From: Tubulanus polymorphus
Lineage: Eukaryota; Nemertea; Palaeonemertea; Tubulaniformes; Tubulanidae
NCBI RefSeq assembly: GCF_964204645.1
Contig: NC_134029.1
Span: 1,025,501 to 1,089,500, forward strand
Direction: 5' to 3'
Length of the DNA stretch: 64,000 nt
Shown piece by piece: positions 2,425 to 63,683 of this stretch. The stretch's first letter is position 1. Every line of letters begins with the position of its first letter. The notes below the pieces were generated by a model, which was given only the letters and a program-made list of their open reading frames with translations, did not search any database and was not told where the DNA came from. Made by a program: the position numbers and the translations under genes.

Positions 2425-9968
<7,544 letters not shown>

Positions 9969-28700: not shown

Positions 28701-31700
28701 AAATCAGGTTAATGAGATATTTAGAAATACGTTACTGACATTATGTAATAGAGCTTAAATACAATCGGGCGAAATTATTCCAACATCTTGATATAATATA
28801 TAAAACGTTGAACACTTTAAGTTACATCAGGCCCGCCGGCAACACATTTCAAAGGGAGTTCTTTATTCATTAAAAAAAAAATCGGATCGAATAAAGAAGT
28901 ATTCAATCTAAAAGTCAAGGTTCCCTATGAGTAGCTTCGAACCAGAGGGCTCGAGAGTAGGAATCCAGCGCGCTAACCACTAGACCACTGAACTCATGTG
29001 AATTACCGTGTTCAGAAGTGTGTCTAGTCAGTATGGTGACCAGTCAGATGTAGTGACCAGTCAGGTGTAGTGACTGATTGACAAAATGCTCCATTCGCCA
29101 TAAACAATAGCTGAGATGGGAATGGCTGGAATGTCTCAATTTCTCGAAGGGGTCTTTTGGGAAACTAGAACATGAACAGATTCTCCGAAATATGATTAAA
29201 TAAACTTAAGAATATAATATCTGATAATGTTCTTATCTATGAATTTATTTGGTAATCATAAATTCAAATTCTCCACATAGATTTATCATATATATATTTT
29301 TTATCGTCTATGATTTATTTCAGATATCGATTCATAAATTCAATGCTAAACACGCTCAATTCAGAGTTCAACCGAGATACAAGGTCAAATCAGAAGGTGA
29401 TAACGTAAGTATTCAATATTTATCCAAACCCTAATGATATTTAACAGTGGTTCCGTCGGTCGCTGGTTGGTACTGCGTGGTTGGTGCACGATAGTGTTGG
29501 ACATATTTGTGGTTGCCTAAAAAATTTACTTCGACCGAGAATTTACGAAGACGCGGAAATGATGATCTCAATATTGATATTTCATGAGTTCAGAGAAATC
29601 GTTTGGGTTTCTGTGTTTTGTCATTCAATCTTGAGCGATAAGAAAAAAAACCCCCAAATTTATATTTATTTCTTTAATCGTATGATAAAGGTGTTTATAT
29701 ATGAATCAGCGAGTCCAGGTTCCATAGTCGAAACCATTTTTTCAATTTTGTCTCCAATCACCTTATTCCAATTGATTTTGATCTGTACTGTGGATTCGGA
29801 CCCTTCGCCCATCAGTTGCACTGTCCAAAAATGATCTTAAATCGTAGTCTAATCATCATTGCCTATGTGCAACTAGAGTCTCTCTGGAGCTTCTGGGTTT
29901 CCACAACTATTGTCTCATGATTTCCCAGCCGCTATGTGGAGATCTTTCCAATGTCAGTGCTGTTGATAAAATGTCCATGAATTATTGATACATCGGACTC
30001 AGTAAATTCTAGGATCCAAGAATCTTCAGGGATCATTATAAATCGGGATTCGGACCAAGCAACCCGATTAGTGCTAGGCATGGAATCCCAAAATTGATTC
30101 ATATATTGTATTTTTCTGTTGTTTCTAGGTACAAATATATGATCAGATAGTGTTAGAAAGTGTGAAATCGGCTGGTCAATGTTTCCATGCTAGTATACCC
30201 TGGCAGATAGACCACTTTCACTACGGGTGAGTTCTCCACGACCTACTTCACTTCGAAAAACGATTTCAACAACTGAAACTAAACTATCATCCACGAATTC
30301 AACTATTTCAATTATCAATTATTTCGAGGGTTAGAAAAAAACGAACATTCAAGCCTCCGGGAGTGATAACATTTGACACTCACCGGCCAGGTAGCCCATC
30401 GAGAATTACCAGCTCAATTCGAGATACCTCAGTCAGTATCTATAGTACAGGGTGGGTTTCCATTGAATTATCAAAAATGTATATATCAATCTACTCGAAG
30501 AGGGAAAAATGTACAACTTATAAAAGCACAATAGTCGTAAAATTAGCTTCAGCTTCGTGCTTTCATTTCAGTTCTGAACTGAATCTAGGAATCGAACGAA
30601 CAGGATTCACTCTGATAAAGAGTTTTAAGCCGTTGCCGGGAGAACAAGAATTTCTACGGGTAAATATTCATCACTAGGCATAGGCCTAGTACTGACCTGA
30701 ATAAAGTATAACACAGCCATGGATTAGGTTTAAAACCAGTCTAAGACCATCTTAGTTCTATAGCTAATCTAGAAAATCAAGATCAGTCCTAAGAAGATTT
30801 AAGATGACTTTTGAACTTGAGCCACGATTGTGCGACTTGGTTCTGAGTTGTAGCAGTAAAACGGCAGGTTATAGAAATATATGTTAACCAAGTCCAATAA
30901 CTGGTGTGAGTTCAGTTCGTTCGTTTGAAGAGTCAGTGTTTTTTACTGTTCACAGAAATAGGATCAAATAACAATATCTGATATCTGATACTATTACCAG
31001 TAGTGAATAATGTCGTTTATCTGTTGTGTTGACTGTATGATGTATGTTTCTAGGGTGGCTCCGTAATACGGTTATTTCACCGTGAATTAGAAGCTTATCT
31101 CGTCACTGAAGGTTTATTCGATGATGCCGTTTTACAAGATGGTAATTATTTCATTACATTAAAATCCTTTTCCACCACGGGTTCCAGTACAACGAATAAT
31201 GTTGCAAAATCATCGAGAAGTTTCTGAAGATCAGAATTCTATTTTCAGTTCATCTGAGACTTCGTCCTATTGATCAGATCAATCGCCCTCAATCTCTGCT
31301 TCCATCTACGTCTGGTCTCACATACTGGCAGGTCGAGGCTGAAGACAATATTCTAAATGGTAAATTATTCGAAACATCAGATATGAAATTTATGAAAAGA
31401 TGAATCCAAAAGTGTTAGAAACCAATTGAAAAATATAGCTGCAAAGCAGCGATAACGGGTTTTCTGGATGCATGTGATCGAAAGGAAAAATTAATTACCG
31501 GGTATTCGATGGAAAAAATAAAATGAGATGATTTGGATATTATCGGAGCAATCCTCTTTTTGGTTGAATGGTTTAACCCCAGTATAGTCCCCGTGATTTG
31601 GAAATTCTCGGAGCCCTCCTTTATTTACTTACTAAATGACGTCACAAACTGTTATTTCGCCGGTGCTTGTTGTCTAACAATTCAATTCAATTCTTTATTT

Positions 31701-32428: not shown

Positions 32429-35400
32429 GTTTACATCAGTCTCATCGATAAGATTGTGGACCAAGTTCCCCAGTTCTAGATCCAGTTGCACAGCTCTGAG
32501 TTAAAATCTGATTAAACATTTGGAAATGAACTCATTTCAAATCAGAGCTAACTCAAACTCAGGATCCAGTTATACAGTTGTCTGATTCATTCTGGTTGAA
32601 ATCAGTTCATTTCCGATGTTTTAAACGTAAATTCAAGGATTACTATGGAACTGGATTCAGAACTGTGGACTAACACTGGGTCTTGAACAATAGAACTCAT
32701 CATTTTATGTTTCAATTCGCCGAAATTTAACCACCATCGGAAAATCATTTCTGAAATGTTTGTTTATAGATATCTACGGAGTGTGATCAACAATATGACG
32801 ATGCATTTTCATTGCAAGATGTTTCTGAAGAAGATTGTTATAATTTTAATTACATCGCCGGTTGTGTTCCGTTCATCAAAAACATGATTCTCGATGTAAA
32901 TATTGATGAAGATAATTTTCTCTAATGACTTAAAATCTATTAACATTTTTCGCTTAAAGATGTTTTTTTCCTTATTCAGTTACAATCGGGAAAATCATTG
33001 CTAGCAATGGAAGCTCATAAAGTGAATGCTGTAAGTAGTGATGATACTTGGAAATTGTCTCGTTGATTTTAGAATTTATTTGCGAGATTTTAGAATCTGA
33101 ATTTCTTTGTGTATCTTAGGGATTGAATCAGATAGTTCAGTTTCTTTACGTGAACGGGATTCCGGAGAAAAAACGTCAGAAATTGTTAAGAAATCTACGA
33201 GTTTTAGATTTGCTGATGGAAATACTGAAATTTCCTTTGCGTAATAAACGAGATCGAGTTTATTTGACGCCGATATTTCTGAACGCGTACGACGTATTAC
33301 ATACCTACATGGCCGGAAGTAGCCGCAAGAACGCTCTTTATATGGCTAAATATATGGGTTTCTTCTACACACAATTGCACCAGCGCGTAAGTCATCACAA
33401 ATACTCCTCTCGAAGTTGACCGATAAACTGGATCCAGTTCAACAGTTACATCTCAATCAGAGTAACAACTGTGGAACTGGGACCTGACGTATTCTCAATG
33501 AAGAAGATGATTAATTAGCAATCTCAGCATCGATGATATTAGAAATTAGTTTATCTGACAGTTTTGAGATTTATCTAAATCCCTTCTTCAGAAAGATAGA
33601 TAAACTTTGAAACATCGCCATTATGGGATCGGTCATCAACTCTCATCAGGGTTCATTAACGGGAAAGAAAAATTCATAATGAACGAAAGAGATGAACGGA
33701 CGTGTATTAATTTTCAGGGGCAGATCGGGTTGAACGTCGCTCAGATGATAATGGAATTGATCAAAGACAATAGAAAAGTCGTGGATCGACTCGGTCAAAC
33801 AGATATCGATATATTTGTGTCGCTTCTCAAGAAACATAAGGTGAATTTACATTTAAAAATCTGATAGTTAACCTGGTATCGTCGAACAAAATGTATCAGG
33901 TCAACTGATGCTCCCACATTTAGATCATAGGCCGTTTCAGATGAACTTGTAAAGTCAATGGAGAAATAAAGATGCTAACCTCCTCAATAGTACAAGATCT
34001 TAACACTGTCACTTGTTCTTCTGTGCTATATTGAATAAGTTTGAATTTTAATAACGGATATTTCTAGAATTATCGCTATTTGGATATGTTGAATGTACTG
34101 TGTGTTTGTGACGGAGTTGCGCTGCCTCATAATCAGAATTACATCGCTGATAAATGGCTGTCTGGTGACTTGGTAAATATACTTAATAAACCTATAAAAT
34201 ACTCTATATTTTGATAGATAATTTACTCTCTAAACTCTTGCGTTTTTCAAGTCTGGTTTATTCCTCACTGATTCTGGTTTAAACATTTGTCGTGAGACAA
34301 GAAGAGACATTATATACATTTCAACTAATGTCGGTAAAACCTGGAATCTTCTCTCGGAATTCTGTGATGTAAGTTCGCATTCACTAAAATACTTTCAGAA
34401 CAATTTCTGAAATGAAAATCTTAACAAATATTAATGATATTTTACAGAGAACGAATGTAATTTATTGTGAAGAAGAATATGAATTTCTAGTTCATCAGCT
34501 TCATTTACTAGTGAAACTCTGTTATGTAAGTTTTCTCTGGTTACTCTCAGTCTTAAAAACTTGATGGCACCAGAAAGTCTGATATATCTAATGAATATTT
34601 CATTTGTTCCAGAGGTTCCGTTGTAACTGTTTTATTTTGTGAAGCTGATTAAATGTTATGTTATTGTGTATAATAGGGCGGTAATCAGTACGTGATACAG
34701 AAAGTGACACAAGAAATGAAATTACTAACTTGGGAACAGGTTTTCTATTCGATGCGTTCTCCGTGTTTAACCGAGGCTTTACGTGCACAGTATTGCAGTC
34801 TGATGATTGGTTAGTATAATCTCTCATTCCGGCTTCCTGAAACCTGAAATAGTAAAATAACTAAAGCTGCACTTACGCATTTATCGGTTCAAATTAGTTC
34901 ATCATCGACGCTCAAATGATAACATTTTAACTGATACTTGGAACTGGATCCAGTTTTACTGTTGGTTGAGTTTGAGTATTGATTGTTGATATTAGTTCAT
35001 TTTCAATGTTTTAACTTCATATAATTCTAATCGGGAACTGTTGAACTGGATCCTGATGTGTTGCATATATTTGTAGGTTTGTTCATTGATGTGGGATTAA
35101 CAAGAAAAATGACCGATCATATCAGTTTAACATTTATCTATGATGAAGTGGATAATGTTGGATTCATGAACAGATTCATTGATATGGTAAGAAAAGAGTC
35201 GCCTGCCTGAGCTAGTTTCACACCCCTCAGCCATCAAACTGGTCATTATTCGATTTTACATGCCTATAACTGTTATATCAAACCCTGACCATCCCTTCAT
35301 AGTCGTGGAACAAACCTATTGCACACAAACACATGTCTCACACAAGATTCTATCATATAGATATTATTAATTTGAAGATTAACTATAATTTCAGGCTCGA

Positions 35401-38400: not shown

Positions 38401-41400
38401 TCCAGCCTACTACAAGGTCCTTAGATTAGAAGTTTTGAGTTGAACCCTTGATTATCAATTTTCACTTTTAGAGAGCAGATATTGACAAATGAATACGGAG
38501 CGGCGCATCTCAGATATATGGTATCATTAGTCGATCTTCTCGCAACCTGTGCTGAGGTGAATAACTTCCCAAACAAATATGGGATTGGTCATCAACTCTC
38601 ATCAGGGTTCATTAACGGAAAAGAAAAATTCATTATGAACGAAAGAGATGAACGGACGTGTATTAATTTTCAGGGGCAGATCGGGTTGAACGTCGCTCAG
38701 ATGATAATGCACTAATAGAATCAATGATATACCTCTAAATATTCATCGAGGATTTGTTTTATTTCATGTCAAGGGTGAAAATCGATTCATTGAATCGTTA
38801 TGTCAGAAGTTTATTCGAATTGAAGATCTGTTCTGGGTTTTAAACCACCAAGCCGTCGATAACAATCTGAAGAGTCCGTTTTTACGGTACATGTTATGGG
38901 TTTATATGAACACAGCTGGGAGTATCATAGAAAGTGGAGCTGCAGAACTGCCTCATGAAAGGTACCGAGTTTATTACCCCAAAAAACTAAAACTGAAATT
39001 ACAACTATCTTGAAGGAAATAAGCCACAGTCAAATTCTAAACGAAATACTCATCACAATTTAAAATCATCTCTTTTTGAGAGTCGTCACCATGATAATGA
39101 TCCCAACTACTATGACTTGACTATCTGAATACTATAATGAAGAGTTTTCATTTTTCAGTTCAACCTGGGAATACATGGCGACACTCGTTACTGATATCAA
39201 CTGTTTAACAGTTTTCATCATTGAAAACAAGGATTCAATTGAACATCTATTATCGAAACCTCCTGCAATCAGGTCAGTTTCATAATCATCATCATCGATT
39301 CCTGTGTGAAAAATCAGGCTATTAATCATACGTTTTCACTTTGTTTTATTTCAGTCAAATCGGTAACAATCAGGCTGAGAAAATGAGGTGCAATATGCAT
39401 TATCTGTTTGACGGAGTGATGCCATTCCTTACAGTCAGTATTCAATCTATCAATTGAAGATTTCTTCAGTTCATATATCTGACCATTTCGAGATTTACTT
39501 TAAAATTTCATCGTCAGAGAAACAGCAGTTATTTTTGGATACTGATTCTCTGAAGACAAGATTTAGATAAATCTTGATAATTTCAGAAAAATAGACTGTA
39601 GAAATGATCAAATGTGTGATTGCTAATTATCTTTTACACTGAGAATACATTAGTTTATCTGTTAATGATCAATCTCTCTCCCTTAATCTCTCTCCCTCTT
39701 TCCTGATATATTTTGATGCATCAGTCACATTCAGTACGGTACTGTCTGTCTTTATGGTTTTAGGTTTTCTTCAGAAAGTTCTATTCTATTGATAAAGAGC
39801 TTTACCCGGATGAAGGACCAATAGTTGATAAACTCGCTCATGCATTGATGGTACGAACATTTTTAATAAGCGAAAAAAACAATTCATACTACTATAAAAT
39901 GAGATGTTGTTATGTCTTTTATGGATTTTTGGTTCACTGAACTCACTTAGGATTTACTATAGTTATTTGTTTGTTTACAGGTATTTGCAGAAGCAATTGG
40001 ATTTCTAATCACAAATCCAACACATTTGAGAATCATTATCAGTTGTGCGTTGTCAATAGTTCCACAATCTACTCTTCCTTCAAGGGTAAATCATTATCCG
40101 AACTATCTCGAACACAACTTCTGAAAACCCTTCTATACAGTGTCTTCTTATTTCATGCAGGTTCTGGAGGAGTTCTTGGAGAAGTTTGGAGCCGGAAATT
40201 CAAAACTGAAAGACTCAATTAACGATGCTTTGTACAATGTACGTATGAGGACCACGGTGCTCAAAGTGAAGTTTGTATGACCTCATTCTAATCTTCCTTG
40301 ATTTATTTGATGTTTAGGATTATCGTGAATATTATGCCGAGGAAGAGGAAATGAACGCTAAATTGCACGCGTTTGCTGGTAATTTCCGTGGCGCTTACGG
40401 AGGAGAGAACACAGTGGCGGCTCAACTGAAACATGCTCCGAAATGTGCCCTGAACAGAGGTTAGTAGTTGATCGAGTCTGAAGGCTTTAAATGCTACAAC
40501 CATAACATCGCTTTCTTCTGGTTTCCGTTGACAAATGACTGGCTATAATTCATTTGAAGTAAAAACAATAATACTAAAGAAAAGTTAAGAGTGTATGTTG
40601 ACAGAATACGATCAGGATCAGAATCTAACATGTTAAGACCAGATTATTGAGAAGAAGGATGGTCTATATTTTGACAGAATACACAGAAATAGGTGGTGAT
40701 GAAGAACTGCCTTTAGGAGAAGAATTCCAGAGTTTTGTCCAATGTTTTATCAATCCACAAGCGAAAACACTTGATGAGCAGTATGAGACAGCAGGCAAAT
40801 TACTGCAGCAACTTGTGTACGTATCCCAAAAAACCTCATTCTTGGTTCATGTATATTGCCTACTTCGTGTTTTCAAAGAGGACAACAATTCAAAATTAAC
40901 CATTTTAAGCTTAAACCTTTTCATGAAACTGAACTCTGCAATCTGAACAAATATCTGATGTTTAAACAATGATTTTCTCTTGTGACAATAAGGATCTCAT
41001 TCCTGAATTCACGAAGCACGGAACAGAAACGTTTAGATCAAGAGGAGTTGGATTTACGATGTCTACAATTACTGAGAGCAATGATTCACAACGAGGAACG
41101 AAAACTACCGGATAAATGGGACGAGAACAAGAAATCAACGAAAGAGTAAATATACAGTTTATACATCAAACTCATTACAGAGTCTCAGCAGAAAGTAGTT
41201 GACAATGTGTTTATATTGTTTGTAGACAACTAGAGAGAATAAGAGAACTGCAGGATGTGTTCAATCGAATGGAAGCTTTGTGTAAAGTTCTTCCTCACGT
41301 CGCCAGGCAGAACGATACACTGGTCAGAGAAGTGTTGAGTTTCATCTCGGATATGTTGTTTAATGCCAACAAAGTTTCGCAGGTCGCTAGAATGAAACCT

Positions 41401-44400
41401 TCTCTGTCGGAATGATACCGCATTTAAGCGCTCTCGGTGATCTTAATTTTCATGGTTTGATTTCAGGATTCTTTGTATGATTATTTTATGAGTACAAGAG
41501 AAGAAAATTTCTTCTTCGCAATCAAGAACAGAATGCATATGTCGGCTATAGCCACAAAAGAGAAGTAAGATAAGCGACTCTTCTACGAAAGTTCGTGATA
41601 TTTCTGGTAGATGACGTTGATGTCACTGAAATTCTTTAATTCATAGGCGGGCGCTACTCTCTCAGCATCGGGCGAGGACCGAGGAAAACATGGCCCACGC
41701 AAAGAGTCTCCAAGCGACCATGACAGCGGGCCGAGTCGCCCTGCAGCGATTACAAAACCTCGAAAATACCAAACGAACGAAGCTACTCAGACAAATCAGT
41801 ATCTTCAACAAATCGCCGGATAAAAAACAACCGAAAAAGGGCATCCACTTGCGAAAATTCAAAAAGTCAAACCGCGCCCAGCTGTACGCGGACAGTGAGA
41901 CAGGTTCTAATGGAATGCTCGTATCAAATGGAAAGACGGGAATTGAAAACAGCGCGATGACGCCTGAGGATTCGATAGAGATGACTGCTATTAAAGTTGA
42001 CACTCAGGTATAGCGAAACAGAAACAGCAGATTGATCCAATAGTTTTGCCAGCAATTTACCTTGATATCTATTGAATTTATCTCGCAGGCTCCACCGGCA
42101 GAAGTAGCTACAGCAGCAGCATCATCCAATCAGCCAAAACCAGAAGATGATCAAGATCTACAATACAGAGATGATGGATATATTCAACTGGTATTAAAGG
42201 TTCTAGCAAGAATTTGTGATGGTCAATTTACTCCTATGCAGGTAAGAGAAATGTATGATTAAACACTTTGTTCATCAAATCAGAAATGTTATCCAAGTAT
42301 CGGAAATGTCATCTTAGTTCTTCGCATATTTTCAGGATTATCTTCGAGAACAGCCTGATAACATCAAATCATTCAATCTGATCGCTGAAACTGTACAATA
42401 CATGTGTCAAGTTTATGCGAATATTAACCCGTCAACGATTGACTTGATAAATCAGTTGTTAGAAAGTCTCAATGAATGCGTTAGTGTAAGTATCACTGGA
42501 AATCATCTAGCTGAAAATATCCAACATTTGAAGCTTATCGTGGTTACAGTTTAATGGTTTATTTTTAGGGAAATGAAGAGAACCGAATCGCTATATTTGA
42601 CAATAAGATCGTCGATTATATAAATTTCATCTTGCGAACTGGACAATTTGCGAAGTGCATGCTTCCTAAAGCTCTCGAACTGCTGGAGAATATCGGAAAT
42701 TTATTGATGAGTTTAATCGAAGAAAATCATCCCGACGCATTAGAGATCGCTAAGGTATAATTCAGCTGACATTTCAGCATCTCAGCGTTTCCCCAAGAAC
42801 CATCTCAGTGTCTGATGTACCACAGGATCGTAGAGCCACAGCCCAACCACTTCCAGGGCTGGGTGAACTCAACGATACTTTCATTTACAACGTTTTCATA
42901 TACATTTGATCTGAATTTCAGGAAGTCGCTGATTGTCTGGATAAAGATGCCTTACTGCGGTTTATGAGTGAATGCTATGTGCTTTCAAGGGTATGATCTG
43001 GACTCTTGTCACCTGTAGTCTGTCTGAGCCTCATAGAGCTATTTACAAAGTTGATGAATCAATTCTTTTTTCAGCCTTCAGAAAAATCCAGTTTTGTCAA
43101 AGCCAAGAAACTACGCGAAAAGGCGCTGAAACAAACTAAAAAGTTGTCGAGTTTGAAAAAACCGGTTGTCGATCAACCCGAAGAACTTCCAACGAATAAA
43201 ATCGTTCTTCCGAAGCGAGACGATGAAATCTTAATGCCAGGAATCAGAGAACACCTCGTTACCGTCGGATTCAAATATTTCTTCTTGTTCCGAAGAATAA
43301 CGGATATAGCACCAAAATATAACAAACGAATCAGTAAGTGACAGTCAAACAGTTACCGAGAGAGTTCATTGCTACATCTGAGTTTACCTTATCTATCGAT
43401 ATTTATAGAACTGACAGAACAACAAGCTATTGCTTACAACTTCTTCGATAAAAACTCGATGTCTGTTGAAATATTGAAAGAAGGCCATTTACAACGAATG
43501 CGTTTCCCGGTTGAAAATAAGGTCAGTGAAATTGACACATGCAGCCAGTTTCACGGTTTCAGGGTTTACAAATTTGATTCTGAGAACTGTAAAACTGTGT
43601 TCTGTATTTGACAGAAGTAGATCTAGTGCCCAATGTAATTGATCGATTGTTTGTTGTTGATGTTATAGAACGTATTACGTGATGAAGTGAAGGAGAAATT
43701 AAAGTGGTCCGTCGATAGATCGAGTCCCAGCAGTAAAATACGTGATTTAATGATCTGGTCTAAAGACATCCTGAAAGATATTTACTATCAGAGAAAGGTT
43801 CTATCAAACAAACTGGCATTCTTCTTCATGAAGTTCTGGTAAGAATAAACTTGACATTTACTACCTTTGAGTTTGTTCCTTTTCGCATGAAAAGTAAGAA
43901 TTCAGCTTTCAAAATGTCGAGTTTTAATAATCCATTGCTGGGAATTCAAGGGGAAATTGTAGACCCAGAACATTTACCCTGCCCAAATGCATGCGCTCCT
44001 ATGAGGAAACTGATATCTATCACAAGTCCTATAAGACACATGTCATATAGAAACTATAAGTGTTTTTTGTTAATAGGTTGTTGTGGAATTATATGTGTAT
44101 ATTCATGAGTTTATGCATAAACATAATGATGCTCGTAACGTGGAACGCGAAAGCAACGATTGATGAAACACCGGAGAATGCAACTTCATTACCGGTCGGA
44201 CTTTACGAGTAAGTGGTATATACCTCACTCACACTGCTTAATAGTTCCATGAATCTTGGAGTAATCATGTGATCACTCCAATTAAGCATTATCGACTGAG
44301 ATTTGAAGCAGTTTCACAGTTAACTCACCAACAGAATTCATCTTCCTCACAGAAATCTGATTAACACTGTATGATTTTTTCAGTCCTCGGCCGCTGATAA

Positions 44401-47394
44401 ACTTCAAGTATTACATGGTGACACTTTATGCATTTGCTGGAATTCACAATGTGTTATCATTGTTTGTTGTGATCAGTTACTTTTTGCTCAATCATCCGTT
44501 GTTTCCAACATTCTCGTGGTTACGGTAAGTTGATTTTCACATTTTGCGGCCGATCCGTGAAGCAACTGAGCCTCGGTTTCTGTACGGTTTCTCTCTGATT
44601 ATTTTAGAAAATGCTGCTGTAAAAGAACTGACGACGAAGCTCGAAATGTTCAAGAAACTCAGAGCAAAAAGATGAAAAAGAAATCGAAACTTGACACTCA
44701 ATTCCTGAGTTTCAAAACTCTGTATTACTTGGTAAGTATAATGGAGACATCAGGTGATGGTCTCAGGTCTTAGAATCCAGAACATGATTTCATTTTCTGA
44801 ATTGTCTATTTTCAAACAGTTATATCTGAGTCATTTGAGTTAAAGCGTTTTTGATAATTCTGTATATAATAGATCGCTGGTTGATTCGTAAGTATCTGAT
44901 AATTACTGCAGTATTACGTAGATCTATTTCTATCTGGGAAATTAAGGGTTTATGTTAAGGTGGAAGAAAGCTATAACGTTCGTACTATATGAATAGTTAT
45001 AAGCTGGAAATGCTTGTTCTCAGAGTGGTGAATATGGGACTGAATTTATATCTTACGTATTCTAACTCTCAAAGCTGATATGGAACGGTGGTGTTGTAGG
45101 ATACGCGTGATGGGTTCTTTCAGTATTAGCCTCTAAGTTTGATCTTTTATTCCTTCTCATGTGATATATTTATGTTTGTAGGTATTCCTTGGTTTCTCGA
45201 TAGCTGGAACGGCGTTCAGTGAATATTTCTTCTGTTTTCACTTACTAAACATTGTCAACAACAATCAACTTCTTGCTAGAGTTATTTCGGCAGTGACTCT
45301 GAACGGTCGGTACCAATAACTCCATTCCTCTCATTGAGAATACATCTAAATTCTGTACTGTTTTTCTGTTGAATATTTCAGGTAAATCTCTGTTATGGGT
45401 CGGAGTTCTCGGAATTGTGATATTTTATATCTACGCGCTAATAGCGTTTGCATTTTTCCGTTCACTCTTCAACCCTGCTGATAACTGGTACTGTAAAAAC
45501 TTGTTCCAGTGTTCAATCACTATTATCAGATACGGACTCGTCGGAGACATGTTTGAGGTCACTATTACAGCTTTTTCCTCATCGTCTTGTCCCGGTTGCC
45601 TAATCACGGTTTTCTGAATGGTTTTATTCTCTGTTTTAGAATATGCCTATAACGGACAGTGAAAAGTACTTTGCTCGGTTTGGAATGTACGTGATTTTCA
45701 ACATTTCATTCTTCATATTCATTACGACAATCGGATTGAACATAATCTTCGGTATAATTGTCGACACATTCTCAGAACTGAGAGATTTGAAGGTAAGAAT
45801 TCATAAAATGAAGCGACAGAGAGAAGACAGTGAAGAGGATGGACTGATGATATATGTTTCTATATTGCAGTGGACTGCAGAACGCGATATGAGAGACAGC
45901 TGTTTTGTTTGTAGTCGCAGTAGTTATGACTTTGAACATTATGGAAAGGTAAGCATTGAGAAAACTGTATCTGTATTAAAACTTTGTCCCTTTTTGGGGA
46001 AAATAAGCAATTGCTCAAAATATGCAATGTAACAGCTTTTTGGATCAGAATCGTTCAGGGGCAATTGCATATAGCCATGGCTTGAGCCCAACAGTGGTCA
46101 TGTGGTATAGGTTATGAGCTTGGCTAACCAAGATTGGTGGACTGGTCTTAAATTTAAGTCATGACTGTGCAACTGGCTCCTGGATACTCACGTGCTTTAG
46201 GCTGAAGCCTCAGCAGATGCCTATGTAATTACCTAATGTTCATGGATGTTTGGTTTATTCCTAGGGATTTCAACATCACATCAGACATGAACACAATATG
46301 TGGGCGTATATATTCTTCTTTATTCACCTGGCTGACACTAAACCAACCGATTATACCGCTTTAGAGTTATACGTCTATAAACTGGTTAGTCTACCAACAC
46401 TTACAATGCATGACACAACTCTTAACGAATTGATTGTCACAAACATTTCACTTTCAGCTTGAAAAAGAAAACTATGATTTCTTTCCGCTGAATCGAGCTT
46501 TGTGTTTGACCGATATGGAAAACGATCAACAAGAAACAAAATTCGATGAATTATTGCATTACGTGTCGTCTATATTTCATAAACAAAAGGAAGAGGTAAA
46601 ACTTGTTAGCGAAACCCTTTACTAACCAGTCTGGCTGTGTATAGCCCAACATAAACTGGCAAAGGGGCATTGTCGTTGTTGCACTTAGCTCACAAAAGCC
46701 CCCTAATAAACAGCCCCGCTCACGACAGCAGCAGCAGTGGAATACCATAAGATTCAAAATAACGAGTTTTTTTCTTTTCTCTTTTTAGGAGCTGAAAAAG
46801 AAACACGAAGCTGAACGATTGAAACAAGAGAAATGGGAAGAAGAGCATCGTCTGATCTTCTACAACAATACCGCTGGCGGTAACCATAGCGATTATCATT
46901 TATCGGCGTCAGTGGACGAACACGTGTCGTTACCGCTTCCTCCTCCGCCTCCTCCGGTGATGATGATAATGACATCGGATGATGATGGTGATGATGAAGT
47001 TGACGGGAAACCGAAAGCTGCCCATATTGAGATTTCGTACGACGACGGGAATGAATCGTTAGATCCGTACAAACCGGAACCGAAATATGATTCATCTGAT
47101 TCCGACGAGGATCAGGAGGGGCTTCATGAACTCGGGGTAACGCCACCTGGTGGTGGTGTAGCTGCGCCTGCTGCAGACGACCAGATACCTGCTGCAGCTG
47201 CTGCTGATGTTTATTCAGAAACGACCGGTCCGGCTAGTAGTACTCCCGATATCCACGCAGCTGATTCAGATTCTGATTCAGATTCTGATTCAGATGTGCG
47301 GAGTGATCAAACTCAAAGTACGTTCTCTTTAGCGACGGAAGACGCTGAAATAGATCCGAATGAACTTCCAATCGGGCAACAAACTAAACTATAA
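22779..47394 (+). CDS. Divergent IP3-receptor/ryanodine-receptor family channel, complete
   Basis: About 59 exons give 2781 residues, close to the roughly 2700 of animal IP3 receptors; exon coordinates are in the block entries below. Every internal exon has AG and GT borders and all phases agree. Order: N-terminal MIR/suppressor and IP3-binding region, two RIH-type helical repeat regions, long alpha-helical solenoid, six-helix pore region, and a CxxC...HxxxxH zinc-binding tail. The family releases calcium from the endoplasmic reticulum as tetramers. It is not a ryanodine receptor in the strict sense, because it lacks SPRY domains and is half the size. It is also not an ordinary IP3 receptor: key ligand residues and the GGGVGD filter are missing. 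Exon 1 (22779-22794, ATG in good context, GTAAAC donor) encodes only MAVSK plus one base and is the least certain part. The gene is divergent from FANCF, with starts about 2.3 kb apart. No in-frame stops were found. Confidence 0.9.
26789..26992. repeat. Near-perfect 204-bp foldback element in channel intron 3
   Basis: Left arm 26789-26885 and right arm about 26896-26992 are reverse complements (about 97 bp each) around a loop of about 10 bp. The right arm reads GAAGATGAC...GTCGAAACG...GTGGGATTC, a tract shared with the hammerhead locus at 8.0 kb and with 28.39 kb. The right arm has a degenerate hammerhead core, where CUGANGA is changed to CCGAAGA. It looks like a head-to-head pair of retroelement termini. 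Confidence 0.88.
28391..28425 (+). repeat. Decayed hammerhead-like terminal fragment
   Basis: CTGAAGA (28397-28403) is followed by GACT/AGTC (stem II with only a 2-base loop) and GAAAC, in channel intron 4. The cleavage triplet GUC is replaced by CTT and stem I does not close well. It is therefore a relic of the family seen intact at 8011-8068. Confidence 0.55.
28929..28995 (-). repeat. tRNA-derived sequence, probably a SINE head or pseudo-tRNA
   Basis: On the minus strand the A box (GTGGTCTAGTGGTTAGCGCG) and B box (GGTTCGAAGC) of RNA polymerase III promoters are spaced as in a tRNA. The A-box side closely resembles tRNA-Glu/Asp. The acceptor stem pairs over only four of seven positions, so an intact tRNA is unlikely. 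It lies in channel intron 4, opposite strand. Confidence 0.7.
32770..34172 (+). CDS. Channel exons 12-16: IP3-binding alpha region / first RIH domain
   Basis: Exons 32770-32895, 32980-33030, 33120-33386, 33718-33840 and 34068-34172, about residues 395-618. [13 protein letters not shown] aligns with the basic helix that binds IP3: R506, K508 and R511 of rat IP3R1 correspond to R472, K474 and R477, while R504 is K470. [16 protein letters not shown] aligns with the YRK segment; R568 and K569 are kept and Y567 is serine. [19 protein letters not shown] and [15 protein letters not shown] are standard family blocks. So the alpha side of the ligand pocket stays basic while the beta side has lost its signature. 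Confidence 0.87.
34252..42241 (+). CDS. Channel exons 17-43: helical regulatory solenoid
   Basis: Exons 34252-34368, 34448-34525, 34677-34809, 35077-35186, 35395-35747, 35824-35878, 36110-36219, 36291-36378, 36453-36560, 36926-37062, 37138-37205, 37403-37620, 37851-38089, 38472-38556, 38774-38961, 39159-39272, 39355-39433, 39764-39850, 39981-40085, 40161-40238, 40318-40459, 40678-40816, 40993-41145, 41226-41382, 41467-41564, 41647-42007 and 42089-42241. About 1250 residues, mostly helical. Family blocks include [29 protein letters not shown] and [21 protein letters not shown]. The last resembles the region of animal IP3 receptors around the LETLREMM segment. Exon 41647-42007 encodes a long basic stretch ([22 protein letters not shown]), likely a disordered regulatory loop. 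This block is the least conserved part of the protein. Confidence 0.85.
38578..38709 (+). pseudogene. 132-bp copy of an intron/exon boundary from the same gene
   Basis: This segment matches 33622-33753 with three substitutions and no gaps. The source is the last 96 bp of channel intron 14, its TTTTCAG acceptor and the first 36 bp of exon 15. The copy starts 21 bp after the donor of exon 38472-38556. Reading through it from that exon meets a stop just after the copy (TAA at 38713-38715). The real next exon at 38774 joins in phase, so the copy is most likely nonfunctional, although it carries a working-looking acceptor. Confidence 0.9.
42336..43838 (+). CDS. Channel exons 44-49: RIH-associated and coupling region
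   Basis: Exons 42336-42485, 42569-42754, 42922-42990, 43075-43333, 43409-43521 and 43669-43838, about residues 1870-2185. [20 protein letters not shown] corresponds to the [20 protein letters not shown] block of IP3 receptors (RIH-associated domain), followed by [21 protein letters not shown]. Exon 43075-43333 begins with a lysine-rich stretch ([15 protein letters not shown]). [15 protein letters not shown] and KLKWSVDRS lead into the pore region, as the YTTERDEQGSKINDFF linker does in IP3 receptors. Confidence 0.85.
44077..45792 (+). CDS. Channel exons 50-55: transmembrane pore domain with atypical filter
   Basis: Exons 44077-44208, 44384-44524, 44608-44731, 45182-45305, 45382-45557 and 45640-45792, about residues 2186-2468. 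Hydrophobic helices are visible at [69 protein letters not shown] and [19 protein letters not shown], the last being the pore-lining TM6. The TM5 region (SAVTLNGKSLLW...AFAFFR) is closer to ryanodine receptors (SSVTHNGKQL...AFNFFRK) than to IP3 receptors. The pore loop reads [13 protein letters not shown], where IP3 receptors have a GGGVGD and ryanodine receptors a GGGIGD filter. It is about five residues shorter and has no GGG. The cytosolic loop between TM2 and TM3 carries KKMKKKSK. Confidence 0.88.
45871..47394 (+). CDS. Channel exons 56-59: zinc-binding C-terminal domain and acidic tail
   Basis: Exons 45871-45948, 46265-46384, 46458-46595 and 46789-47394, about residues 2469-2781, stop TAA 47392-47394. 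[19 protein letters not shown] and [10 protein letters not shown] give the CxxC...HxxxxH zinc site that links TM6 to the cytosolic ring in IP3 and ryanodine receptors. Then come a charged helix ([15 protein letters not shown]) and, all in the last exon, about 170 residues of low-complexity sequence: a run of seven prolines, aspartate runs and an SDSDSDSD tract. Human IP3 receptors end in a coiled coil without such a tail. The purine-rich tail exon makes shadow open frames on the other strand. Confidence 0.88.
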
Positions 47395-51399: not shown

Positions 51400-52740
51400 C
51401 AATTTACCTTTAAAGATTGCTGGGTTCAGTTCTGGTCTTTTCTGTGCACCGTTCCAGTTTGTAGATTTTGGACGAGTAGTTGATCTCAAGCTGGGTTTTT
51501 TCTTATAGTTGAAATTCAGCTGCAATGATTAAAAGAAGATATCCAGTAATGACAAAATATTTAATTTAGAATTTATCATAATAATTTCCATAAAAAATCG
51601 ACTTACATTTCAAGTTTGCTGGGTTCAGTATCGGTTAGAACAATTGGTTGATGCATTTGATTCAAGCTTGGATTGTTCATTGGGCGGAGCTTATCTGTAG
51701 ATATTTGATGAGTCGTTGATTTAAAGCTGGGCAGTTAGATAGGATTTAGCTGAAATGAGCAAACAAAGATATCCTGTAATGACAAAATATTTCATTTAGA
51801 ATTTATCGACATAAATCCACATATATCCAGTTACCTTTTATGCTTGGGTCGTTATCAGCGATTATCTTATTAGTTTGTTAGTTAGTTGGCCTCATCTGTG
51901 CGCTGTTCCAGTTGGTCAATTTTGGAAGATTAGTTGATCTCAAGCTGGGTTTTTCTCATAGTTGAAATTTAGCTGCAATGATTAAAAGAAGATATCCTGT
52001 AATTACAAAATATTTCATTTAGAATTTATTGAAATAATTTCATGTATATTAAGTTACCTTTAATGATTGCTTGGTCCATAATCGGCGTGGATCATCTTAA
52101 GTTTGTTTGTTGATAAATTGGATTCTAGTTGGCCTCATCTGTGCACTGTTCCAGTTGGTCGATTTTGGATGAGTAGTTGATCTCAAGCTGGGTTTTTTCT
52201 TATAGTTGAAATTTAGCTGCAATGATTAAAAGAAGATATCCTGTAATGAAAAAATATTTCATTTAGAATTTATCGAAATAATTCCATGTATATCAAGTTA
52301 CCTTTAATGATTGCTTGGTTATCGGGGATTATCCTATTAGTTGGTTAGTTAGTTGGCCTCATCTGTGCCCTGTTCCAGTTGGTCGATTTTGGACGAGTAG
52401 TTGATCTCAAACTGGGTTTTTCTCATTGTTGAAATTTAGCTGCAATGATTAAAAGAAGATATCCTGTAATGACAAAATATTTCATTTAGAATTTATCGAA
52501 ATAATTCCATGTATATCAAGTTACCTTTAATGATTGCTTGGTTATCGGGGATTATCCTATTAGTTGGTTAGTTAGTTGGCCTCATCTGTGCCCTGTTCCA
52601 GTTGGTCGATTTTGGAGTAGTTGATCTCAAGCTGGGTTTTTTTCTTATAGTTGAAATTTAGCTGCAATGATTAAAAGAAGATATCCTGTAATGACAAAAT
52701 ATTTCATTTAGAATTTATCATAATAATTTCCATAAATAAT
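51400..52740. repeat. Tandem array of about 225-240-bp units with splice-site-like borders
   Basis: About six units with a shared CTGTTCCAGTTGGTCGATTT block near 51446 (variant), 51908, 52148, 52370 and 52596. On the minus strand each unit has a polypyrimidine tract plus ATTGCAG, an exon-sized segment, and ATTAAAGGTAAC. A related subfamily ending TTGAAATGTAAGTTCA is found near 48990, 51600 and 53370, so the family spreads over 4.5 kb. Confidence 0.88.
51408..51519 (-). CDS. Exon-like cassette with an open frame (unsupported by homology)
   Basis: Minus strand: an acceptor (ATTGCAG) precedes 112 bp of open frame that ends at AAAG/GTAAATT. It encodes 37 residues rich in N, K, P and T (starts LNFNYKKKPS, ends RPELNPAIFK). 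It is one of about six related units; the others carry stops or frameshifts in this frame. I recognise no domain. It could be one exon of a fast-evolving or noncoding transcript, or a coincidence of repeat sequence. Confidence 0.25.
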
Positions 52741-57802: not shown

Positions 57803-60800
57803 GAAGATTAATACTTATAAATAGGGTAAATTCGTTTTCAGCGTAAATAGAAACTTACACGAGATATTACGACATGTTTGTCGTATATGATCCAAATGAG
57901 CTAAAATCTGCTCAATGTTTGGGTTCTCCTTTTTACCAGACGGATTTTGCTGCCTGAAAAAGGTTGCGTAATGACTTGAACAAAAAGGTTACGAGCTGTC
58001 CTTGGAATGCGAGGCGAGTGAATACCACCAAAGGGTTGGGTCCAAACTGTAAATTTCCCAAATGACTTAAGACAATTGATTGAACAAAGAGAAGTTTCTG
58101 TAACACAGCTGTAGGTCACAATGTGAACTAATAAATATGAACTCTACAACTGCAGAACCGACTCAAGTTTTGTAGATATTATTCAGATGCCTCGGCCCTA
58201 CACGCATGGTTTATTTCTAACCTTTGTCGTTTTCTGTTTGGCGTATTTGGAACGTTTTTTGTAAGTTGTGACAGTAATAATTCGGCCAACTTCTCTTCAC
58301 ATTCTTCAGCCCAATATTTCAATATCGAAACCGCGAAAAAATCATTCTTTTTACATTCGCGACACAAAATACATCTCAAAATCTCCGTATTCGGACTGAA
58401 ATTAGAAATTATACAAAATTAGATTCGATTCAGAAACGAGAATGAGTACAGAATACAGCATCGTGTGAATACAGAAATGTAAAATTTACCTGTTTCTTTT
58501 CAGTTGCAGTAGAATACATGAAAGTGCCTCGGCATGAGCTGAAAATACACAAATACGTTTAAAGATAGAATACGAAACGGTACTGTACATTAAATAGTAA
58601 AATACTCACCACCGAATTCCAGTTTTGGTAGAATCGGTAGAATATGTTCGACAGGAATGTTATGTGCAGCTATCAACTGCCACAGGAAATATTGTTCAAT
58701 AGTTTCCCATTCAAGACTATCATCTATAAAACATTAAACTATGTATCTTAGTATAATTGAGTTAGGGAGATTAATATGAGCTCAGAGTTTGTAAACTTAC
58801 TTAGAACAGCTAGAAATGAATCCTTCCTGAACATTATCAGATGACCCTGCAATATCTGACAGATTATATCCTGAAGCTGAAATAACAAAACACAAAATAC
58901 GAACTTCAAGCTCGCGTCGAAAACCGGCCGAATTTCAGCGAAGAGATGATTTATTACCTGAGGTCCGGCGATACTACCAACAATGAGATGTAGTAAATCA
59001 GTGTTGCCGATAGCGATATTAGGAAACTGCGTGTAAATATCCGGAATAAGAAACGTGAATAACCGAACGTCATCTTCTTGACACAACTACAAAAAAAAAA
59101 TACTTATAACTATATAGAAACACCTGACATAGTTCAGCAATGAAATGTGCGATTCAAACTTACATGCATATCTTCCATGAGAACAGTTGCTAAATCTTTA
59201 TCTAAACTTTTACAGAAATCGCGATAAGTCGACATTTTTTCATCATTCACTTTACTACAAAATACAACGTTTCAACCATTCATTAATTGTACCCTCCGTG
59301 AATATATCAGATAATCATTCGAAGCATTTTTAGATTAGAGATATTTTTCAACTCACCTGACTTTTAAAAAGTACAGTAAATTATAACCAATTCTTGGTTG
59401 TTTTTTATACATTTCGCTGAGTAGTAAAAGTAAAGGTTGTCGGCTGGGATCCTCTTCATGTGTCTGACTGAGATTTCTACAATATTCAAACCATTACATC
59501 TTACAACATCAGATCTCACTACTTTCAGAAATTATTCAGTCTATTCATCCGATTCTTACCTAAATAGTACAAACATTGGAGTTCCTATAGAATCTTCAAT
59601 TGATCTACAATTAAAATATCAAAACCATTTATATACAAAACTGCCAAAAATCATGCATCAAAAATCCCAACAACACCACAACAAATAATTTTGGTTCTGG
59701 GCAAACCGTTTGTAGTAGAGGTGTTCATCTATTTGAAGTTCACCACACTTTGAAAATTTGACTGACCACAAAAACAACTAGAACATTGTCAAATAACCAA
59801 TATCCTGAAATTCCAGTAGTTTTCCAGGCAAAGCCTTTTAAAATCCTGGAACTGATTTTACTCAAATTCCAGGAAATCCAGGTGTGCGAACCCTGTATCA
59901 TACCACCTCCCATTTATTAACTCAATAAGTACTACCTGGTATACAATAGAATCACCAGAATCCAGTTCCACAGTTGTGAGTTGAGATTTGACTAACTCAC
60001 GAGTTAACCCTAACTCATGACTGTGGAACTGGATCCTGTGATTTTAGTGCGCGAGTGAAACGGAATTGAAACGCTGTTTCTATCGAGCGATACTTACTCG
60101 TCGTCAATCTCAGGAGGAAACAGATTATTATTGAATTGACTAGATAAAATATGGCACAAACACAATCCGACAGGTTCAGCGGCGTCGATATCAAATATAT
60201 CGTCCTGAATAATCGACTGAACTAAAGAATCCATGAATTCACATTGCGTATCATTGTCTTTTTCCAACCACAATTGTTCGACATTGTTTTTAATATCGGG
60301 ACTATCGATCTGTTCGAGCACGTCACTGATATTCACGTCTGCTAACGTAGAAACACGAGTCGGACGATACTGTATCGATTCACTGGTTTTACCACCTGAA
60401 ACAACCATAAACATTATCATACATCATTTCACAATTCATCTGTTTAATATTACTCATCCAAAATTCCTCGATAATTCCCCAACCCTTGACCAAAAGTTCC
60501 CTGAATGAATGTTAAGATATCCTCACTGGGGCCAGTTTCTAATCAAAAAGTTCCTTGTGCCACTCGTCACCAACAAGAACAATTAGACACCAAAAATTCA
60601 AATTCTCTGATTAAATTTTGAGATATCCTCTGTGAGGGCTGTAAGAGTAACAGTTACCTATTAATGAAAGTGGTTCATCATCTTCATCGCTGAATTCAGC
60701 TTCTGTTCCGTTATTTGAATCATTTAAATGATTACCAATCAGAGCAGAACCCTGATCAACTACTAGTTCAATATCTTTACCATTAGTCGGTTCATCTTTA

Positions 60801-61664
60801 GCTGCAACACAATAACATAAAACGCTAATTAAACATAAACAGGGACGCAGCTGAGAGAGGAAAGAGTAGAGAGAAGATAGAACAGTCAGGTGGAAAGGGA
60901 AGAGAAAGGATTTATGGATAGGAAAGAAAGCAGGGAGAGGGAGCAGGAGAGTGAGAGGAAGGTCGGATCAGGGGAGAGGGATATGAACAGTTTTTCCAAA
61001 GAGATAGTGTTGTATTTTTTACCTTCCGGTGAACAGAATTCAGTAAAGTTTTCACGTATCATGTTGCGTAATTCACGATCAATTCGATTATTATCAAACA
61101 ATGGAGACAACGACCTAAATACAAATAAACAGATGAATCAGTTAAAACTGAACCGATGACCGACTCGGAGCCCGGAATAGACCAGTGGAACTGACCTGAT
61201 GACCGACTCAGAGAGTGGAGGAGACCAGTGGAACTGACCCAATGACCGACTCGGAGACCGGTGGGGACCAGTGGAACTGAACCGATGACCGACTCGGAGA
61301 CCGGAGGGGACCAGTGGAAATGACCCGATGACCGACTCGGAGAGTGGAGGGGACCGGTGGAACTGACCCGATGACCGACTCGGAGAGTGGAGGGGACCGG
61401 TGGAACTGACCCGATGACCGACTCGGAGACCGGAGGGGACCAGTGGAACTGACCCGATGACCGACTCGGAGAGTGGAGGGGACCAGTGGAACTGACCCGA
61501 TGACCGACTCGGAGACCGGAGGGGACCAGTGGAACTAACCCGATGACCGACTCGGAGAACGGTGGAACTTACTGTAAAACACGTTTATCTAAAATGGCGT
61601 AAAGAGCTGCATAGATTCCCTGTTTTACCTGACCAGCGAGTGGAGGGAAAAAATTACCCATTAT
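56885..61664 (-). CDS. INTS3: INTS3 exon block: acidic linker, C-terminal domain and basic tail
   Basis: Sixteen exons. Exons 60801-60658 and 60395-60098 encode the acidic linker ([11 protein letters not shown]) and the segment before CQEDDVRLF. The C-terminal domain follows: [27 protein letters not shown] and [18 protein letters not shown]. The last two exons end in a serine-acidic stretch ([11 protein letters not shown]) and [13 protein letters not shown], a likely nuclear localisation signal, as in human INTS3. The 15-codon exon 59604-59560 is small but supplies the conserved [14 protein letters not shown] block. Confidence 0.95.
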
Positions 61665-63683
61665 CTACAAAATAAAACAATATTCTCTCTCATATCAATC
61701 AACAAGTAGAGAGGATCGAGACTTAGATCTTCAACTGTTGACTTCTAAATTCCTTTCTAGTCTTTCATCAACAAGTCTTTTACACTAGCCTTCGAGGTTG
61801 GCTCAGGGGGGGGGGGTTATGGTTGAAAAGTTATTGTTTCCAGTTCTTGTCTAGCTGATTAGATTGTCTATCATGTATTTGATGATGATAGCAATAGAAA
61901 CATCGAGAGAATGAAAGAAACTGATACTTACTCTACACATAAAGTCTAATAATGTGGCTGTTATTGGTAAATGTTGACGCATTGAATGATACATCACTAG
62001 AATAGCAGGTTCTGTGAGTGAAATACAGAAATCAAAACAATTAGCACCGAATGAAACCAGAATATACGAATCTAACTCCAGATCAGATAAATCAGCTTAC
62101 CGATATTCATAATGTTGTCTTTATCTTTTTCGAAAAATAACCAATCATAAAACAGTGATAATTTAGCATTTGATGCGGCAACATTCGACTGAAGAAAGAG
62201 AAAATACAATAAACATTGATGAGACTGATTCACACATTGATGAGACCGATTCACACATTGATGAGACTGATTCACACATTGATGAGACCGATTCACACAT
62301 TGATGAGACAGAAAGCTGCGATTGAGGATACTTACAGTACACGTCGTGAGTAACCAACCAATGACAGCCCAACGCGGGATGATATCAGAACACAGCACCT
62401 CATTAGACGGGTGTATCACAGCACAAATATAACGTATCAAATCAAACCGTAACGATTGACTCTCAGGAGTGGCTAGATACTGAAATTAAACACAAACATC
62501 AATTCATATACATATATGACTGCGGTAAGTCGGGTAAGTTTGGGATTCTTACAGATCAGGGAATCCAAAGTTCTCTATTTCCCTGACCCTTTATTGACTA
62601 AAAATTCCCTGATCAAATTACAAGATATCATCAGTGGGGACTGTTTCTTATCAAGAGGTTCCTTGCGCCTAAGTCCCCGATCTATAAGATCCCTGTAAGA
62701 TAAAGATTCACTTACTTGTCGTTGGAACCACTCCTGGTAGCGTTTTTGTTGACCAAATTTCACTTTACTCGTCAGAAAACACAGTTTAGTTTCCATATCA
62801 GGAGTTAAACGAGATACGAAGAATTTTCGCGAAGTTCTCATTTTCATCAATTGTTGAACACCTTCAAAATATAAACAGAAATCAGGTCAGAAAGTGTTAT
62901 CAAAATCCAGTTCAATAGTTCTTAGTTTGACTTAACGCTTTCAGTGCTGGCTAATTAATACCCTATAGTGCTGAAGATAATTTGAAAAATTTTAAGAAAT
63001 TCCACCCTAGTGTGTTGAATAACGGGAATACCACTATAATAGTGCGTCTACACCGCGGCGCAGTGTATCGTTAGTTACTAATATTTCACTATGTTTGACT
63101 GGTGCTGCCATCTTTCAAGAGAGATAATTAGTAATTACTAATTACATCAATACATTGCAGTGCGGTGTACTAGCAAAATCCATCACTGATTTGTACACCG
63201 CACTGCGGTGTAGACGCACTGAAAGGGTTAAAGAGTTAGAATTAATTCATCACAAATGCTTCAAAATCTTAGAGAATTAAATTCAACGAAGAACTGTGAA
63301 AACTGAGACCATTTTGATAAAAGATTTATTATTTACCAGTAAATGTAGGTGACAATGATTCTGCGTTGTGTAAAATATCTCTCCATAATTTCTCGAATTC
63401 CGGAATTCTAGCCACGTACTGCAATAACCGCACCAAATCGCGTCCTATCTGCATACACTCAGTGAACTAGAATAAAACACACAGTATTACCGTAATAAAA
63501 CATTCCAGTTAGCGATTGAATTCAACGTCGAAATATTTTACCTTTTCTCGAAGTAACGAGACGCAGAAATCGACCTCTCTTTGTCGTAAACTGCTCAGAT
63601 TTGGACTTCCGTGATCTAGTATTACTCGGAGATATGTGTATAGAGCTACTGTCATCAGTTGAGGTGTTACATCTAACCAACTC
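56885..63683 (-). CDS. INTS3: Integrator complex subunit 3 (5' end outside window)
   Basis: Twenty-two minus-strand exons: 63683-63542, 63466-63337, 62861-62716, 62479-62336, 62188-62101, 62011-61932, 61664-61573, 61114-61023, 60801-60658, 60395-60098, 59604-59560, 59476-59357, 59254-59164, 59086-58958, 58876-58801, 58723-58610, 58538-58490, 58395-58222, 57953-57859, 57765-57693, 57202-57046 and 56959-56885. Phases agree and give 850 residues; human INTS3 has 1043, so about 190 N-terminal residues are missing. INTS3 is part of Integrator (snRNA processing, promoter-proximal termination) and scaffolds the SOSS complex with single-strand DNA-binding proteins. Near-identical blocks include [60 protein letters not shown] and [19 protein letters not shown]. 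Confidence 0.97.
57772..57802. repeat. CAAT tetranucleotide microsatellite
   Basis: About seven copies of ATCA/CAAT next to an INTS3 exon acceptor. Confidence 0.9.
61150..61565. repeat. 43-bp minisatellite in an INTS3 intron
   Basis: About ten copies of a unit with GATGACCGACTCGGAG and GACCAGTGGAACTGA at 43-bp spacing (for example 61158, 61201, 61244, 61287). It fills the intron between exons 61664-61573 and 61114-61023 and ends about 8 bp before the GTAAGT donor. Confidence 0.95.
61932..63683 (-). CDS. INTS3: INTS3 exon block: conserved helical-repeat N-terminal domain
   Basis: Six exons from 63683 down to 61932, about 243 residues (243 complete codons plus edge bases). This is the best conserved part: [21 protein letters not shown], then [33 protein letters not shown] and [11 protein letters not shown] align residue by residue with human INTS3 with few changes. 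The INTS3 N-terminal half forms a HEAT-like superhelix that binds the INIP and SSB subunits. The acceptor before 62861 (TTTTGAAG) is unusual but required by frame. Confidence 0.95.
62214..62312. repeat. 21-bp minisatellite in an INTS3 intron
   Basis: About four to five copies of ACATTGATGAGACTGATTCAC with alternating T/C. The array fills most of the intron between exons 62479-62336 and 62188-62101. The 7-codon period creates an open frame on the minus strand (repeated SHQCVNR/Q) that is not INTS3. Confidence 0.93.
62932..63231. mobile_element. TTAA-flanked MITE (piggyBac-like termini)
   Basis: A 300-bp element bounded by TTAA on both sides. Left end TTAACGCTTTCAGTGC and right end GCACTGAAAGGGTTAA are inverted repeats. 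The sequence GTGCGTCTACACCGC inside the left half recurs inverted at the right end. TTAA duplications and CCCTTTC-like ends are typical of piggyBac-type nonautonomous elements. It lies in an INTS3 intron. Confidence 0.8.

Follow-up and report, generated by a model that had tools for sequence, protein, structure and literature searches.

Three families of calcium-release channels are described in bilaterian animals, namely the inositol 1,4,5-trisphosphate (IP3) receptors (IP3Rs) IP3RA and IP3RB, the second of which was lost in vertebrates, and the ryanodine receptors (RyRs) (PMC7992859; here and below, papers are cited for the sections that treat the point in question). The leech Helobdella has two IP3RB genes, one of which, ip3rb2, is enriched in touch neurons (PMC7992859). 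The selectivity filter of the family follows the motif GxRxGGGxGD (PMC8301844), and GGG[VI]GD is treated as the family signature of calcium-release channels. Here, we describe an IP3R-like channel gene in a 64,000-nucleotide stretch of the Tubulanus polymorphus genome (the window; contig C5, positions 1025501–1089500), in which the filter reads YGLVGD. The same change was found in two paralogues elsewhere in the genome; it is genuine and conserved, and it departs unexpectedly from the family signature, in what is probably a known subfamily.

The original prediction, made from the letters of the window, had placed a channel of this family here, with a clear pore exon that lacked the three filter glycines, and had suggested that conductance or ion selectivity should differ or that the protein should serve only as a modulatory subunit. 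The gene and its pore lie as follows:

25202–47394, + strand: IP3R-like channel gene with 58 coding exons and 2776 residues, recognized by paralogue similarity and splice sites.
45382–45557, + strand: exon 53, which encodes S5, the pore helix, and the filter; in the ITPR2 alignment, a gap of five residues falls at RNGGG.
45531–45548, + strand: filter codons for YGLVGD, where GGGVGD is expected; located by a pattern scan.

The gene model was based on open frames compared with two matching regions elsewhere in the genome, and the exon-by-exon matching comprised 65 and 61 BLASTP rows (E values up to 0.01), a few of which were chance or out-of-order matches. All 57 acceptors are AG and all 57 donors are GT, and the sole stop is the terminal one. 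Exon 53 proved as unambiguous as claimed in its position, its splice flanks (AG/GT), and its phases (entry phase 1, exit phase 0), and the absence of the three glycines was borne out, both here and in the two paralogues; the earlier model length of 2781 residues was corrected to 2776. The product of exon 53 includes [29 protein letters not shown], and the pore reads [22 protein letters not shown], without the RxGGG of the family motif. Membership of the IP3R family was upheld by five Pfam domains, which follow one another as expected and all exceed their curated cut-offs (Ins145_P3_rec, 102.8 bits; MIR, 60.6; RIH, 94.7; RIH_assoc, 81.0; Ion_trans, 32.0), and a C2H2 zinc finger (CFVC...HxxxxH) follows S6 in all three paralogues. 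When the remaining pieces of the protein were scanned with Pfam, a single further match was added, which belonged to an unrelated family and fell below threshold (19.2 bits against a cut-off of 27); no SPRY or RyR-repeat match was obtained at E ≤ 0.01 when all 2776 residues were scanned in pieces.

When the pore-to-zinc-finger protein was searched against the genome, 15 rows were returned, distributed over C5 (four), C1 near 7.95 Mb (four), C6 near 8.51 Mb (four), C3 near 4.50 Mb (two), and C9 (one). The weak C9 match (E value 0.0107, one stop) contained no IP3R-like sequence when it was read and was rejected. RIH_assoc matches led to five genes (C3, C1:7.94 Mb, C5, C6, and C1:24.3 Mb), which sorted as one IP3R-A (C3), one RyR (C1:24.3 Mb), and three of the unusual-filter kind; a genome search with PF08709 missed the short exons of the window gene itself, and such counts are lower bounds. 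The filters of the two further paralogues are RFGLIGDLFE and RYGLIGDLLD. Within the sequence that was read, a single filter was present in each of the C5, C1:7.95 Mb, and C6 genes ([20 protein letters not shown] and RYGLIGDLLD), and GGGIGD occurred once each in the C3 and C1:24.3 Mb genes. In all three unusual genes, an intron in phase 0 lies directly after GD+3; that of the C3 gene comes after GD+8. Outside this genome, 50 pattern matches in a genome contig collection and one in viral contigs were obtained, none of which was confirmed as a relative. In the genome itself, COX1 was not found, and searches for annelid linker and mollusc haemocyanin families gave no matches, as was also the case in the control genomes.

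In chained tblastn alignments, the C1 copy was 53.3% identical to the window protein over 2217 of 2776 residues and the C6 copy 49.9% identical over 1967 of 2776, and the synonymous differences were saturated (0.801 and 0.798, respectively). Nonsynonymous divergence (dN) from the window gene was 0.367 over 2122 codons for C1 and 0.432 over 1915 codons for C6. The pore exons of C1 and C6 were compared directly, and the chained-alignment figures for this exon, which included intron read-through, were set aside. S6 was the best-conserved segment measured (dN 0.129 and 0.159 for C1 and C6, 40 codons), and the pore helix and filter gave 0.268 and 0.361 (23 codons). In the three-way comparison, identity was 36% over 1700 columns, 75% of 36 columns in S6, 10 of 23 in the pore helix and filter, and 12 of 35 in S5 and the turret; the filter residues G, L, G, and D were invariant. 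These values indicate that the trio are old paralogues under strong protein constraint.

In the original prediction, the pore loop was said to be about five residues shorter than in known receptors. This held for the stretch before [VI]GD and failed for the loop as a whole, because the distance from the pore-helix Cys to the FF/FY of S6 is 41 residues in the window, C1, C6, and C3 genes and in ITPR2 (40 in RyR2). When the [VI]GD residues are matched to each other, the loop lacks five residues before them and has five more after them, so it is best described as remodelled at constant length, not shortened. A HMMER alignment of exon 53 to mammalian ITPR2 placed a five-residue gap exactly at RNGGG and VGD on VGD, with low confidence around the gap. 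An ungapped alignment, in which the filter would be replaced in place, is possible since the lengths match, but it scored lower than the best gapped alignment in all six comparisons with two IP3R-A sequences (19 versus 26, 29 versus 40, 23 versus 31, 22 versus 31, 36 versus 39, and 37 versus 48). The best gapped alignment paired GL and [VI]GD in four of the six comparisons, and those of C1 with ITPR2 and C6 with C3 put a smaller gap elsewhere; an exact five-residue loss is for this reason favoured only.

The spacing of the front half of this pore resembles that of polycystin-2 (PKD2), whose filter is LGD (PMC7399828), and of TRP channels, in which a short filter likewise stands right after the pore helix. 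On the assumption that the pore-helix Cys residues correspond, the distance from this Cys to the D of GD is 12 residues here, 17 in ITPR2, and 11 in PKD2. Between GD and the S6 residues LN, in contrast, the stretch is longer here (35 residues) than in ITPR2 (30) or PKD2 (29), and the likeness is one of analogy and not of membership. A nearer fit of the window protein to generic cation channels was also considered, and the Ion_trans scores gave it no support.

To place the trio, a tree was constructed from the pore-to-zinc-finger region (seven sequences, 218 columns, no outgroup). The trio formed one side of a branch with 99/99 support, apart from ITPR2 and the C3 gene, which paired with each other (79.3% identical, support 86/96); the C1:24.3 Mb gene paired with RyR2 (79.1% identical, support 100/99). 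Without an outgroup, the tree does not tell whether IP3R-A or RyR is nearer to the trio, and the long C6 row leaves the branching order within the trio unsettled. Identity in this region was 58–70% within the trio and 30–40% between the trio and the other four sequences. Because IP3R-A and RyR are themselves only 37–40% identical here, these values point to a third lineage and not to a recent copy of IP3R-A; by sequence, the trio is a separate lineage beside IP3R-A and RyR. The N-terminal 657 residues of the window protein matched IP3R1 with 166 bits and the best RyR with 74 bits, and the similarity of the pore region was approximately equal (about 94 bits to IP3R and about 92 to RyR).

Compared with IP3R-A (ITPR1–3 and the C3 gene), the window gene shares the domain order, the zinc finger, the gate Phe of S6, the conduction Asp, and the 41-residue span from the pore helix to S6, whereas it lacks RxGGG and the RTTGR loop, has five additional residues in the post-filter loop, and is only 33–40% identical over the pore region. 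It neither groups with the vertebrate ITPRs nor contains a complete IP3-binding pocket. RyRs (RyR1–3 and the C1:24.3 Mb gene) differ in size, at about 5000 residues versus 2776, the N-terminal half of the window protein is clearly nearer to IP3R, and neither the tree nor a SPRY domain or RyR repeats join it to that family. The superfamily motif GxRxGGGxGD is replaced by GL-----[VI]GD in all three paralogues. An invertebrate thus has a third lineage of the IP3R type, distinct from both IP3R-A and RyR, as would be expected of IP3R-B. The trio are probably IP3R-B genes, assigned by elimination; no IP3R-B sequence was found in the genome and viral contig collections. Like the invertebrate IP3R-Bs (leech ip3rb1 and ip3rb2, Capsaspora IP3R-B), they form a third lineage with IP3R architecture that is absent from vertebrates and, as in the leech, duplicated, although there are three copies here versus two in Helobdella.

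The residues relevant to permeation, Ca2+ sensing, and IP3 binding are encoded in the following exons:

45640–45792, + strand: exon 54, the post-filter loop and S6, with the gate Phe retained and the second gate Ile changed to Val (LNIIFGIIV).
45871–45948, + strand: exon 55, the part of the C2H2 zinc finger that contains CFVC, from the alignment.
46265–46384, + strand: exon 56, the part of the zinc finger with the His residues, together with the Thr at the presumed third Ca2+-sensor ligand position (TDYTALE, 46346–46366).
31249–31359, + strand: exon 9, the loop matching RTTGR of IP3R1 (265–269), with Arg265 retained and the TTGR loop replaced; from alignment to PDB 5xa0, and the same in both paralogues.
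33120–33386, + strand: exon 13, the basic residues of the alpha-domain, with K508 and R511 (RQKLLR, 33174–33191) and K569 (SRKNALY, 33321–33341) retained.
42089–42241, + strand: exon 42, with Asp at Ca2+-sensor position E1978 (ARICDGQ, 42206–42226); from alignment to PDB 3jav.
42336–42485, + strand: exon 43, with the Ca2+-sensor Glu at position E2042 (LNECV, 42468–42482); from alignment to PDB 3jav.

The narrowest point of the IP3R1 filter is G2546; in this channel, D2551A abolishes pore function, D2551E alters selectivity, and the gate is formed by F2586 and I2590 (PMC8149723). The Asp matching D2551 and the gate Phe are retained in all three paralogues, and the position of I2590 is Val in each. 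Ca2+ collects around D4899, E4900, and D4903 in RyR1 (PMC7026163); an acidic residue three positions after the filter Asp occurs in all three paralogues and is possibly similar to one of these. The Ca2+-sensor Glu pair of human IP3R3 is E1882 and E1946 (PMC10613215). In every copy of the trio, this pair corresponds to Asp (position E1978) and Glu (position E2042). The Thr of TDYTALE in exon 56 stands at what we take to be the third Ca2+-sensor ligand position, and it is retained in two of the three paralogues, the C6 copy having Asn. For the IP3 pocket, we assume the usual roles and numbers of the contact residues (R265, T266–R269, R504, K508, R511, Y567, R568, and K569). R265, K508, R511, and K569 are kept in all three paralogues; R504 is changed to K, T266–R269 are replaced, Y567 is changed to S, and R568 is changed to Q in the C6 copy. 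The RTTGR loop is therefore lost throughout the trio.

On this evidence, we favour a working channel with altered permeation over a silent modulatory subunit, and we give a probability of about 0.5 to the full proposal, in which the gene would encode a cation channel of the endoplasmic reticulum (ER), from a third animal IP3R lineage, with altered permeation, mainly Ca2+ gating, and little or no response to IP3. In such a channel, the tetrameric assembly would be retained, the pore helix would run straight into the short [YF]GL[VI]GD filter, and the Asp ring would stay at the lumenal mouth. Because bulkier residues stand where IP3R and RyR have the glycine of the narrowest point, conductance and Ca2+/K+ preference would be changed; because the Ca2+-sensor positions are largely intact and the IP3 pocket has lost half of its residues, gating would be mainly by cytosolic Ca2+, with a weak or absent IP3 response. 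The conduction Asp and the conservation of S6 lean towards a conducting pore, and beyond the gene being intact and under selection, each of these steps is what we infer from sequence. A broader version seems rather doubtful, namely that the trio represent a third kind of intracellular release channel, from an ancient animal subfamily lost in vertebrates, which would be gated by Ca2+ independently of IP3 and would have a short filter of polycystin type, [YF]GL[VI]GD, instead of the glycine filter, a compensating longer outer loop, and permeation unlike that of IP3R and RyR. Several points weigh against a conducting, IP3-insensitive channel. With R265, K508, R511, and K569 retained, the protein may still be able to bind IP3 or a different anionic ligand; Ion_trans scored only 32.0 bits in the window protein versus 86.4 in the IP3R-A and 49.3 in the RyR of this genome; the pore helix and filter are only mildly better conserved than the whole gene (dN 0.268 and 0.361); and membership of IP3R-B is assigned by elimination.

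Some of the background speaks for a non-conducting modulatory or dominant-negative subunit, or an ER scaffold, which would regulate other release channels while its own permeation was abolished by the loss of the filter; this is possible, if not the explanation that we would choose. Capsaspora IP3R-B reportedly neither bound IP3 nor released Ca2+, which would suit such a subunit and counts against a working pore. The same holds for the otherwise family-wide glycine motif (PMC8301844) and for the filter mutations of RyR1, which give non-functional channels (PMC2668181). IP3R-B is described by a citing paper as unable to bind IP3 (PMC9113742), which fits both this subunit and the IP3 independence that we propose and does not fit conduction. 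However, S6 is strongly constrained, and the residues of a dead pore would be expected to drift, yet all three paralogues still have GL[VI]GD, the Asp needed for conduction, and the gate Phe, which weakens the case for a silent subunit. An ordinary IP3-gated channel, for which the filter change would be neutral, is improbable: several residues of the IP3 pocket remain and the loop length is unchanged, but the RTTGR loop is replaced in all three paralogues, the glycine of the narrowest point is gone, and identity to IP3R-A over the pore region is about 35%. An artefact of assembly or gene modelling, or a pseudogene, is very improbable indeed. A loss of 15 nucleotides could arise from a local consensus error, but the same change is present at three loci on three chromosome-scale contigs, and a local assembly error or chance is very unlikely because two paralogues elsewhere in the assembly carry it; a pseudogene was ruled out by the intact frame, with no internal stop in 2776 codons, and by strong purifying selection. 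The original prediction had also raised the possibility of another exon carrying GGG[VI]GD. None was found in a six-frame scan of positions 18001–48500 of the window with the pattern G[GAS]G[VILA]G[DEN]; the sole filter-like match was YGLVGD itself (45531–45548), and an alternative pore exon was thus ruled out in this range. If the 82-nt intron that follows exon 53 were retained, no filter would be gained and the frame would run into a stop (open reading frame, 45303–45617).

Full-length, selected paralogues without the family signature, standing beside a normal IP3R and a normal RyR in one genome, provide a natural experiment on the role of the glycine run. They also open a practical route to the function of IP3R-B, a family called understudied in the leech study (PMC7992859). 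GGGVGD itself was met in one paper, and no account of an IP3R lacking it was found in a literature search, from whose coverage most subscription journals fell outside, so that absence from print is not established.

Other features of the channel gene lie in its introns and its last exon. The last exon (46789–47394) encodes a low-complexity, proline-rich and acidic tail, for which the Pfam scan gave no match, and the C1 paralogue has a proline-rich tail of similar length and different sequence. Intron 2 contains a perfect 98-nt inverted repeat (26789–26992) with 8 nt between its arms, which suggests a recent insertion of foldback or MITE type. A 132-nt segment of intron 29 (38578–38709) is a 98% identical copy of 33622–33753, which spans the end of intron 13 and the start of exon 14; it could act as a cryptic exon, which would meet a stop.

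The channel gene is flanked by two others in the window. Exons of a neurobeachin-like BEACH/WD40 gene (Beach, 77.9 bits) lie at 3622–9303 on the + strand, and exons of Integrator complex subunit 3 (INTS3; Ints3_N and Ints3 HEAT domains) lie at 58751–62886 on the − strand. The interval that separates the channel gene from INTS3 holds a tandem array (51441–52738) of about 5.7 copies of a 223-nt unit, and a 43-nt minisatellite of 9.7 copies at 61146–61562 leaves all three − strand frames open.

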